DNA of 64,000 nt, from the NCBI RefSeq assembly GCF_900112185.1, contig NZ_FOKP01000015.1, positions 1-64,000 of the forward strand, given 5' to 3'. This document shows positions 39,261 through 41,772 of this stretch, one piece after another (position 1 is the first letter of the stretch; every line of letters starts with the position of its first letter). The notes beneath the pieces are model-generated. The model searched no databases, had not been told where the DNA came from, and was given only the letters and a program-made list of their open reading frames with translations. Made by a program: the position numbers and the translations under genes. Source of the DNA: Allobosea sp. CRIB-10 (lineage in GTDB: Bacteria; Pseudomonadota; Alphaproteobacteria; Rhizobiales; Beijerinckiaceae).

Positions 39261-39499
39261 TATTGGATCGTCGGAAGAGTTTCAGGACGCGGCAACATTC
39301 CGCTTGCGCCGGCTCCTGAACGGCGCGAACCTGCCCTCCGACATCCCTCTTCGACGGCCGCCCGACCCTGTCGGGCCCGAGCGACCGCCGCCTTTCCGGC
39401 GTGGGCGCTCCGTTCCCGTTCCCGCCGGTCAACCGCCGTCCCGGACGCAAAGCCTTCAGGGCCATCGTCCGCGCGCGGCCAGAACCGAAGGAGGACGAC

Positions 39500-41578
39500 A
39501 TGGCTGCGACTTCCAGCAAGGGAGGAAACCCGTCCGGCGTCAGAGGCCGGGGGCCGCGATGCATCGCCATCGTCGGTCCCTTCCAGAGCGGCAAGACCAG
39601 CCTGTTCGAGAGCATATTGGAGCGTTGCGGCGCCGTGTCGCGCGCCGGCTCCGTCAAGACCAGGAACAGTGTCGGCGACGCCTCGCCGGAAGCACGCTCC
39701 CACCAGATGAGCACCGAGCCCAATGTCGCCAGCGTCGACTTCATGGGCGAGCGCTACACCTTCATCGACTGCCCCGGCTCCGTCGAGTTTCTCCAGGAGA
39801 TGCGCCACGTCCTGCCAGCGGTCGACGCCGCGGTCGTGGTCTGCGAGGCCGATGACCGCAAGGCGCCGGCGCTGGAACTCGTGCTGCGCGAGCTCGAGGA
39901 GGCCGACATCCCGCGCTTCCTCTTTCTCAACAAGATCGACACCGCCTCGCGGCGTGTACGCGAGACGCTCGGACTGCTGCAGCGCGCCTCGCGCACGCCG
40001 CTGCTGCTCCGGCAGATCCCGATCTGGCAGGGCAGCATCGCCGTCGGCTTCATCGACCTCGCGCTGGAGCGGGCCTTCATCTATCGCGAGCATGCACCCA
40101 GCGAAGTGGTGCCGCTGGCACCCGAGGAGGTCGAGCGCGAGCGCGATGCCCGCTTCTCGATGCTGGAGAAGCTGGCCGATTATGACGACGAGCTGATGGA
40201 AGGCCTGCTCGGCGAGATCGAGCCGCCGCGCGACCTCGTCTTCGACGACCTCGCCCGTGAACTGAAGGAGCGTCACGTCGTGCCGGTGCTGATCGGCGCG
40301 GCCGAGCGCGGCAACGGCGTCACCCGGCTGCTCAAGGCGCTGAGGCATGAGGCACCGCCCCTGGAAGTGACGCGCGGGCGGATCGGCGTGGTCGACAGCG
40401 GTGCGCCGCTCGCGCTGGTCATGAAGACCTGGCAGTCCGGCCAGGGCGGCAAGCTCTCGTTGGCACGCGTGCTGCGCGGGCGCATGGCGGAAGGCGACGT
40501 CATCACCTCCTCCGGGGGCGTCGAAGCCCGCATCGCCGGCGTGCTCGAGCTCAAGGGCGCCGAGCAGCAGCGCCGTCCGGCGGCGGAGGAGGGCGAGACG
40601 GTCGCCTTAGCCCGGCTCGAAGGCGTCCGCACCGGCGACGCGGTCGCGGTCGGCAAGGTCCGGCCCGATGTCGTCAGCGCCGTCGCGCCGCCCGAGCCGG
40701 TTCATGCGCTCTCGGTCGGCGTCAAGGATCGCAAGGACGATGTCAGGCTGACCTCCGGACTCGCCAAGCTGATCGAGGAGGATCCGGCGCTCGCGCTCGA
40801 ACACCGTGCGGAGTTCGGCGAGATGCGCCTCTCCGGCCAGGGTGAGATGCATTTGCGCGTCGCGCTCGAACGGCTCGCCGGGCGCTACGGTGTCAATGTC
40901 GACAGCGGCGCGACGCAGATCGGCTATCGCGAGACCCTGCGCGGCAAGGCCAGCGCGCGCGGCCGGCACCGCAAGCAGAGCGGAGGCCATGGCCAGTTCG
41001 GCGATGTCGTTCTGGAGATCGGCCCGCTCCCGCGCGGCGAGGGTATCCGCTTCGTCGACCGCATCACCGGCGGCGTCGTGCCGAGGCAGTACATCTCCTC
41101 GGTCGAGGCCGGGGTGCGCGACTACTGCCAGCGCGGCCCGCTCGGCTTTCCGCTGGTCGACATCGAGGTGACGCTGACCGACGGCTCCTACCATACGGTC
41201 GATTCCTCCGACATGGCCTTCCGCCAGGCGGCGCGGATCGCGATGGGCGAGGCCTGCCCGCAGGCCAGGCCCGTGCTGCTGGAGCCCATCCTGGCGGTCG
41301 AGATCGTCATTCCCTCGGATGCGATGTCGCGGGCCTCGGCGATCGTCTCGGCAAGGCGTGGCCAGATCCTTGGCTATGATGCGCGGCCAGGCTGGCGCGG
41401 CTGGGACCAGATCAACGCGCTGATGCCGGAGGCGGAGATGAGCGGGTTGATCGTCGAACTGCGCTCGGCGACGGCGGGTGTCGGCACCTTCAGCGCCCGC
41501 TTCGACCATCTCGCCGAACTCGCCGGCAAGCCGGCCGACGCGGTGGTCGCGGCGCAGGCGATGGCGCAGGCGCGATAG
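39500..41578 (+). CDS. elongation factor G-like GTPase with degenerate G3 motif
   Basis: The protein has 692 residues from ATG 39500 with an AAGGAGGA site. The EF-G domain order is kept: G domain with P-loop GPFQSGKT (26-33) and NKID (144-147), then domains II to V including YHTVDSSDMAFRQAARIAMGE. The G3 motif reads DCPGS (90-94) instead of DTPGH, so the histidine that activates water is Ser94. It belongs to an alphaproteobacterial EF-G-like group distinct from FusA. Role in translation is unproven. No str-operon genes are near. Confidence 0.85.
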   Translation: MAATSSKGGNPSGVRGRGPRCIAIVGPFQSGKTSLFESILERCGAVSRAGSVKTRNSVGDASPEARSHQMSTEPNVASVDFMGERYTFIDCPGSVEFLQEMRHVLPAVDAAVVVCEADDRKAPALELVLRELEEADIPRFLFLNKIDTASRRVRETLGLLQRASRTPLLLRQIPIWQGSIAVGFIDLALERAFIYREHAPSEVVPLAPEEVERERDARFSMLEKLADYDDELMEGLLGEIEPPRDLVFDDLARELKERHVVPVLIGAAERGNGVTRLLKALRHEAPPLEVTRGRIGVVDSGAPLALVMKTWQSGQGGKLSLARVLRGRMAEGDVITSSGGVEARIAGVLELKGAEQQRRPAAEEGETVALARLEGVRTGDAVAVGKVRPDVVSAVAPPEPVHALSVGVKDRKDDVRLTSGLAKLIEEDPALALEHRAEFGEMRLSGQGEMHLRVALERLAGRYGVNVDSGATQIGYRETLRGKASARGRHRKQSGGHGQFGDVVLEIGPLPRGEGIRFVDRITGGVVPRQYISSVEAGVRDYCQRGPLGFPLVDIEVTLTDGSYHTVDSSDMAFRQAARIAMGEACPQARPVLLEPILAVEIVIPSDAMSRASAIVSARRGQILGYDARPGWRGWDQINALMPEAEMSGLIVELRSATAGVGTFSARFDHLAELAGKPADAVVAAQAMAQAR

Positions 41579-41609: not shown

Positions 41610-41629
41610 CTATAGACTAAAGTCTATAG
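41610..41629. promoter_or_regulatory. perfect inverted repeat upstream of fadD
   Basis: CTATAGACT (41610-41618), AA, AGTCTATAG (41621-41629) is a perfect 9-bp inverted repeat only 32 bases after the EF-G-like gene. Its AT-rich arms and lack of a T-run favour an operator over a terminator. Confidence 0.55.
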
Positions 41630-41750: not shown

Positions 41751-41772
41751 GAAGGTTTATATGTAAACTTTC
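41751..41772. promoter_or_regulatory. candidate fadD operator
   Basis: GAAGGTTTA (41751-41759), TATG, TAAACTTTC (41764-41772) pair at 8 of 9 positions. It lies about 150 bases before fadD. Fatty-acid regulators of the TetR and GntR families bind similar AT-rich dyads; which one acts here is unknown. No credible gene lies in the 41579-41922 gap. Confidence 0.5.

Follow-up and report, generated by a model that had tools for sequence, protein, structure and literature searches.

The 64,000-nucleotide window that we analysed (Allobosea sp. CRIB-10, contig NZ_FOKP01000015.1) carries on its forward strand, at 39500-41578, a gene for an EF-G paralog that belongs to an established subfamily, EFG II, within its alphaproteobacteria/cyanobacteria group (Margus 2011), and that has a serine in place of the switch II histidine, a loss shared across the family. 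Judged from its sequence and from comparable characterised proteins, this paralog probably drives slow ribosome movement while consuming little GTP or none. An earlier note on the same DNA had presented it as an EF-G-like protein lacking its catalytic histidine; that framing needs correcting in that the protein belongs to an already described subfamily, and we place the wider interest in what we interpret as a loss of GTPase elements that has recurred, and been selected, among EF-G paralogs.

The gene (692 aa, recognised by translation, NCBIfam NF009379 and Pfam; its coordinates include the final stop codon, TAG) is preceded by GGAGG, read directly at 39490-39494 of the same strand, which resembles a ribosome-binding site 5' of the ATG. 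Translation and alignment place the P-loop, GPFQSGKT, at residues 26-33 (39575-39598), with Gln29 at the Asp position of canonical EF-G; the switch I region at residues 50-74 (39647-39721), with Ser71 (39710-39712) at the G2 Thr place; G3, DCPGS, at residues 90-94 (39767-39781); and G4, NKID, at residues 144-147 (39929-39940), all on the forward strand. The central claim of the earlier note, that G3 lacks its histidine, is borne out, as Ser94 (codon TCC, 39779-39781) aligns with the switch II histidine. Its P-loop reading was also right, though the GHVDAGKT that it used for reference was not: ordinary EF-G has AH[IV]DAGKT, as in this genome's own copy, so the P-loop of the window protein has lost a conserved Asp too. 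Relative to canonical EF-G, the P-loop Lys and Thr, DxPG and NKxD are retained. A histidine supplied from another position had been considered as well, and a replacement present in >60% of the clade was sought by alignment over residues 1-290. Only positions 139 (64%) and 283 (87%) qualified, the first being Arg in the window protein and the second lying at the end of the G domain, so that the alignment offers no obvious, conserved substitute within the G domain.

With NF009379, the window protein scores 982.5 bits (cut-off 513), and with TIGR00484, the model for canonical EF-G, 384 bits (cut-off 659.4). The NF009379 cut-off alone fails to separate the paralog from EF-G, since it sits below the scores of many canonical EF-Gs (about 463-553 bits among those scored and used in the 235-row set described below). 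In a tree from the trimmed alignment, the query clade (n = 151) contained no canonical EF-G and had a support of 1.0 (0.79 in a first tree). None of the canonical motifs DTPGH, AHxDAGKT and RGITI is present, the window protein having DCPGS, GPFQSGKT and HQMST instead. Margus, Remm and Tenson 2011 (PMC3150367, available in part) portray EFG II as a subfamily that evolves fast and whose GTPase domain is loosened, and name an alphaproteobacteria/Cyanobacteria sub-subgroup with G2 R/HxMS/GV instead of RGITI. HQMST fits the R/HxMS of this group, its fifth place being Thr, not Val, as in many relatives too. Gly26 (150 of 151 clade members) and Leu35 (148 of 151) contrast with Ala (36/36) and Thr (27/36) in canonical EF-G, and the shared sequence family and a basic loop 1 of domain IV complete the resemblance to the EFG II group, from which we found no difference; the domain V hairpin carries additional residues that may correspond to insertion XI of EFG II (Margus 2011). 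The text of PMC3150367 gives G3 as DxPG only and contains neither "histidine" nor "catalytic". Atkinson 2015 (PMC4342817), in the part available, notes that EFGII carries Gly in place of the P-loop Asp, regards the role of this subfamily as unknown, states that it can replace EF-G at a much slower rate, and likewise does not use the word "histidine".

The genome has a separate, ordinary EF-G (C27:69584-71623; 33% identical to the window protein), which an EF-Tu-like 403-codon frame (C27:68910-69494) adjoins, an arrangement consistent with EFG I in the str operon. Models for tetracycline ribosomal protection proteins scored the window protein at no more than 213 bits (NF012153, 213.4), against cut-offs of at least 775, and it is not one of them. 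The nearest named relatives fetched are Bosea proteins, 84% and 79% identical; B. psychrotolerans is now placed under Allobosea in the taxonomy.

Loss of the histidine is widespread in the subfamily, and serine is the usual choice of the alpha/cyano clade. We drew 289 alphaproteobacterial genomes evenly across the class and counted NF009379 matches above 600 bits as members (the next among the matches listed below that line scored 547 bits). The family was carried by 110 of the 289, the window's own genome included, and all 110 were read. Residue 94 was readable in all but one that has no N-terminus (L344), and was Ser in 98, Ala in 8, Gly in 2, Thr in 1 and His in none, and the loss is therefore not an oddity of one gene. 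The P-loop Asp was absent from all 108 readable members, and His565 of domain IV was kept in 110/110. Together with a first set, in which 60 of 60 family sequences had Ser94, the absence of His from the 109 means that the serine reflects neither chance nor sequencing error; the alphaproteobacterial alignment proposed in the earlier note as a check on Ser94 thus came out in its favor.

A larger set of 265 loci yielded 257 proteins, from which 14 short or weak and 8 duplicate entries were removed, and with the window's own copy replaced by a single query row it came to 235 rows; pooled from several searches, it is an uneven sample, also across phyla. Within the alpha/cyano clade of this set (n = 151), residue 94 was Ser in 137, Ala in 7, Gly in 5, Asn and Leu in 1 each and His in none, and the P-loop Asp was found in 0 of 150 readable members. 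Canonical EF-G had His in 36/36, a count unaffected by our having picked these sequences by their P-loop, which makes their P-loop Asp count circular. The other 48 non-canonical EF-G-like proteins, for each of which EFG II membership is not proven, had Phe (22), Ser (9), Tyr (8), Leu (4), His (3), Ala (1) or Gly (1), so that His is missing in 45. The three that keep DTPGH (L190, L195 and L238) lie in or near His-less groups, representing either retention or reversion. Among cyanobacteria, 18 of 59 genomes carry the family, one of these genomes having been chosen for carrying it. We take sll0830 of Synechocystis to be a cyanobacterial member; the available part of one source gives it as about 1.6-fold up in a regulator mutant. 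Within the genus of the window, the family was not found in 8 of 37 genomes, two of which (G025 and G033) are also without EF-G, maybe through assembly gaps; another, G008, is in two contigs and rated 100% complete.

Purifying selection acts on the gene and on its G domain. Against seven close relatives, dN/dS was 0.03-0.21 for the whole gene and 0.01-0.16 for the G domain, which is thus not decaying. Ser94 is encoded by TCN in 132 members and by AGT or AGC in 5 (two alphaproteobacterial, three cyanobacterial), a switch between the two codon families requiring two base changes, and from these codons the serine looks selected. Its conservation ranks 136th of 692 residues, so the position is well but not extremely conserved. 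A hallmark of the clade is a Trp pair in the extra stretch of the domain V hairpin (Trp-x-x-Trp; 41393-41404, forward strand), defined by clade alignment, with W635 in 151/151 and W632 in 145/151, at a position gapped in 36/36 canonical EF-Gs. Loop 1 of domain IV stays basic.

Some relatives have lost further parts of the GTPase. Switch I is almost wholly gone (residues 53-70 gapped) in proteins from S. meliloti pSymB (L202; G3 DVPGN), Phyllobacterium (L148/L157; DTSGS), Rhizobium herbae (L153/L156; DAPGL), a Rhizobiales isolate (L152; DAPGA), a Boseongicola MAG (L149/L158; DCPGS) and a genome of the same order (L345; DAPGP), and is shortened by 9-11 places in four members of the class sample (L332, L335, L336 and L343). 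Four rhizobial switch I-less members, when compared, gave a dN/dS of 0.08-0.15 and have kept loops 1 and 2 of domain IV and W635; the Phyllobacterium protein was modelled with confidence (mean pLDDT 90.4, pTM 0.85). In eight genomes of one proteobacterial family (L242-L249), the P-loop, within the first ~35 residues, reads GAGET (Lys to Glu) and G3 reads DVPGS; each of these genomes has a second EF-G-like match, and dN/dS among the five paralogs compared was 0.06-0.11, with one pair saturated. From their sequence, nucleotide binding is probably absent in these paralogs. A further EF-G-like protein (L263) has the P-loop GGGGAT (Lys to Ala), yet RGITI and DTPGY. Serine at the switch II His occurs in the alpha/cyano clade and, separately, in Bacteroides and one proteobacterial family. 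We tentatively suggest, as a possibility that we would not yet expect to hold, that EFG II sheds its GTPase, losing the His in nearly every group sampled and then, in some, either switch I or the P-loop Lys, and that the end forms may be EF-G-shaped translocases needing neither GTP hydrolysis nor a GTP switch. If true, these end forms would be natural mutants for asking what GTP does in translocation.

Pfam at an E value of 0.001 matched domains I, III, IV and V, with domain II unmatched. An AlphaFold2 model of the window protein (38 sequences) reached a mean pLDDT of 90.1 and a pTM of 0.86, was poor only in the first 20 residues and aligned with EF-G structures over nearly its full length; because the model is confident and so aligned, all five EF-G domains are taken as present, and the earlier description of NKID and the domains as intact holds. 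Among the 50 Foldseek matches listed, the top one was T. thermophilus EF-G-2 (1wdt; TM 0.85, 33% identity), and two ribosome-bound structures were also present, B. thetaiotaomicron EF-G2 (8dmf) and the EF-G2-70S complex of M. smegmatis (9k0z); the highest-Z structural alignments were with ribosome-bound EF-G. Domain IV (residues 473-589; 40916-41266, forward strand; PF03764) has HRKQSGGHGQ as loop 1 (490-499) and keeps His565 in loop 2. It is the most EF-G-like part, being 47% identical to that of the genome's own EF-G, compared with 26% for the G domain. Mean identity in domain IV was 64% between the query and its clade and 53% between the genome's EF-G and the canonical set, two sets that differ in breadth.

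In three EFG II-type proteins with reported activity, the His is missing: B. theta EF-G2 (DCPGS), M. smegmatis EF-G2 (DTPGY) and T. thermophilus EF-G-2 (DAPGY). B. thetaiotaomicron EF-G2 (PDB 8dmf and 7uvp; NCBIfam NF058620) shares with the window protein DCPGS, an Asp-less P-loop, the G2 Ser and the EF-G domains, and also coexists with an EF-G in its genome. It differs by ~23 extra residues in domain IV (513-535 of 8dmf), which have no counterpart in a beta EFG II protein and at which the window protein continues without insertion relative to EF-G; WxxW was not seen in B. theta EF-G2 in the printed alignment. The paper on B. theta EF-G2 reportedly credits the missing GTPase to a region of this kind, 26 residues long. 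When the B. theta fragment was added to a tree, that protein joined the beta/gamma-type EFG II (support 0.98), outside the alpha/cyano clade (1.0), and the deepest node of the non-canonical group was poorly supported (0.23); with B. theta branching apart, DCPGS either arose by convergence or is an ancient state that intervening lineages have lost. The entries 7uvp and 8dmf hold one chain sequence with the molecule name TetQ, yet 8dmf is titled B. theta EF-G2. Residues 11-512 of 8dmf (502) score 932 bits with NF058620 (full-length cut-off 1000), whereas the Tet(Q) model gives them 101.5 bits, and by sequence the chain is Bacteroides EF-G2 despite its label. In the available parts of the sources, B. 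theta EF-G2 is described as enabling GTP-independent translation (PMC10294740), is ascribed translocation without GTP hydrolysis (PMC12775393) and, under carbon limitation, has its mRNA up 238-fold as fusA mRNA falls tenfold (PMC6989115).

The other comparisons point both ways. M. smegmatis EF-G2 (PDB 9k0z), solved on the 70S ribosome, shares the EF-G2 type and the loss of His, differs in having Tyr instead of Ser and in being actinobacterial, and is reported to be without ribosome-dependent GTPase; T. thermophilus EF-G-2 (PDB 1wdt), an EFG II protein that is His-less like ours but with Tyr instead of Ser, differs in that it is reported to bind and hydrolyse GTP, to have a higher intrinsic GTPase activity and to sustain poly(Phe) synthesis (Seshadri 2009 and Connell 2007, results taken as quoted in the available part of PMC3150367). 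For E. coli EF-G H91A, the part of PMC4532990 available gives a sevenfold fall in ribosome-stimulated hydrolysis (202 to 28 per second), an about 90-fold fall in Pi release (28 to 0.32 per second), and GTP affinity and intrinsic hydrolysis that are about unchanged, with H91Q hardly slowing hydrolysis. That intrinsic hydrolysis survives loss of the His may explain why the Thermus protein is still counted as a GTPase. E. coli EF-G H92A is said, in the part of PMC12775393 available, to stay ~20 s on the ribosome and yet to perform multi-turnover translocation. Yeast Ski7 has a His-to-Ser change in G3 (Ser360) and binds GTP, with no hydrolysis observed even when 80S ribosomes are present (PMC4933942, PMC4509514); S360H changed its function little, most being kept (PMC4933942), and its Ser was suggested to be able to stabilise the catalytic water (PMC4509514), each as given in the available parts of those papers. 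Ski7 is an EF1A/Hbs1 relative in non-stop mRNA decay, not an EF-G, so the likeness in His-to-Ser must be convergent.

We propose, with somewhat more confidence than doubt, that the window protein combines EF-G-like docking and translocation with impaired hydrolysis and Pi release, serving as a spare, slow or GTP-saving factor beside EF-G. It would bind GTP through the retained P-loop Lys and Thr, G2 Ser, DxPG and NKxD, and would dock in the A site like EF-G, where the conserved domain IV would promote tRNA-mRNA translocation. With neither the switch II His nor the P-loop Asp in place, GTP hydrolysis triggered by the ribosome, and Pi release most of all, would be slow or absent, in which case each round would be slow and movement would be driven by binding energy, not hydrolysis. 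Use would be most likely in nutrient limitation or slow growth, by analogy with B. theta. The family-wide fixation of the His loss, the conserved domain IV and purifying selection support this reading, as do the relatives that have lost switch I or the P-loop Lys and yet remain under purifying selection with intact domain IV tips, the much slower substitution for EF-G ascribed to EFGII, and the multi-turnover translocation of the long-dwelling H92A; B. theta EF-G2 with the same DCPGS, M. smegmatis EF-G2 and Ski7 are good precedents for slow or no turnover. Against it stand the His-less T. thermophilus EF-G-2, the best Foldseek match among those listed, with its reported GTPase; the sevenfold effect of H91A and the near absence of one in H91Q; the dispensability of the Ser, with Ala, Gly or Thr in 11 of 109 and a rank of 136th among the 692 residues; and the place of B. 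theta EF-G2 on another branch, with an extra stretch of domain IV that is missing here. The Ser could also stabilise a catalytic water, and Ski7 S360H changed little. The suggestion of slow or no turnover in the earlier note is thus upheld by the three precedents and weakened by the Thermus protein and by H91A, and its premise, that the His activates water, is disputed for EF-G (PMC4532990, as partly available). Sequence alone cannot tell slow from absent hydrolysis, and the Thermus protein warns against certainty.

That same Thermus protein is one argument for an alternative that we consider unlikely, namely that the window protein is a working GTPase of altered chemistry, in which Ser or the backbone places the water and which acts as an ordinary, if slower, multi-turnover EF-G. 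The modest effect of H91A on hydrolysis and its unchanged intrinsic rate fit this alternative, as do the largely retained P-loop Lys/Thr, DxPG and G4, the mostly Ser G2 and purifying selection on the G domain; it accords poorly with the additional loss of the P-loop Asp, with the B. theta factor of identical DCPGS that is reported to have no GTPase, and with the continued selection on relatives that have dispensed with switch I or the P-loop Lys. We give little credence to a protein that does not translocate and occupies the A site in a GTP state, protecting, parking, recycling or rescuing ribosomes, for although Ski7 offers a parallel and the clade-specific Trp pair of domain V hints at a private contact, His565 is kept in all 110 class-sample members, loop 1 is basic, the Tet protection models score far below their cut-offs (at most 213 bits against at least 775), and no family-wide partner gene was seen in the neighbourhoods of 47 sources. 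The stalling, recycling or regulatory roles floated in the earlier note are likewise less supported than slow translocation because it is in domain IV that the protein most resembles ordinary EF-G, and to go from a missing His to a stalling factor is unsupported. A redundant or decaying EF-G copy without its own role is very improbable given a dN/dS of 0.03-0.21, its occurrence in 110 of the 289 genomes of the class sample and in 18 of 59 cyanobacterial genomes, and retention of Ser94 through different codons, though the gene is dispensable, with no copy found in 8 of the 37 genus genomes, among them G008, which is rated 100% complete.

Slow translocation with little GTP turnover, if correct, would bear on the old question of what EF-G requires GTP hydrolysis for, ribosome movement or mainly its own departure, on which single-molecule work favors the latter (PMC12775393, as partly available). 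A family found in 110 of 289 sampled genomes, His-less and in some members without switch I, supplies test proteins that are natural and have been under selection. The family further suggests that GTP turnover differs in many of the proteins annotated as simply "elongation factor G" in these bacteria, and that these may serve slow-growth translation.

Naive ORF calling around 68 sources left 47 usable, the EF-G ORF having been missed in the other 21, and in these no partner gene shared across the family came up, although the clusters are blurred by GC-rich shadow ORFs. Among the recurring neighbours, an upstream gene read as an aminotransferase occurred in 18 loci and a gene read as LysR-like in 15, neither of them in the window; a putative acyl-CoA-ligase-like gene, so assigned by reading, lies downstream in 4 loci including the window. 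A scan for promoters and terminators gave nothing clearly above chance. Starting 32 bases past the gene, at 41610-41629, is a 20-base palindrome, CTATAGACTAAAGTCTATAG, perfect except for its two middle bases, which is the sole such site in the genome at up to 2 mismatches and has no T run after it. A second palindrome-like sequence, GTTTATATGTAAAC, lies at 41755-41768, in the interval that separates the EF-G paralog from the acyl-CoA-ligase-like ORF downstream, and is perhaps an operator of the latter.
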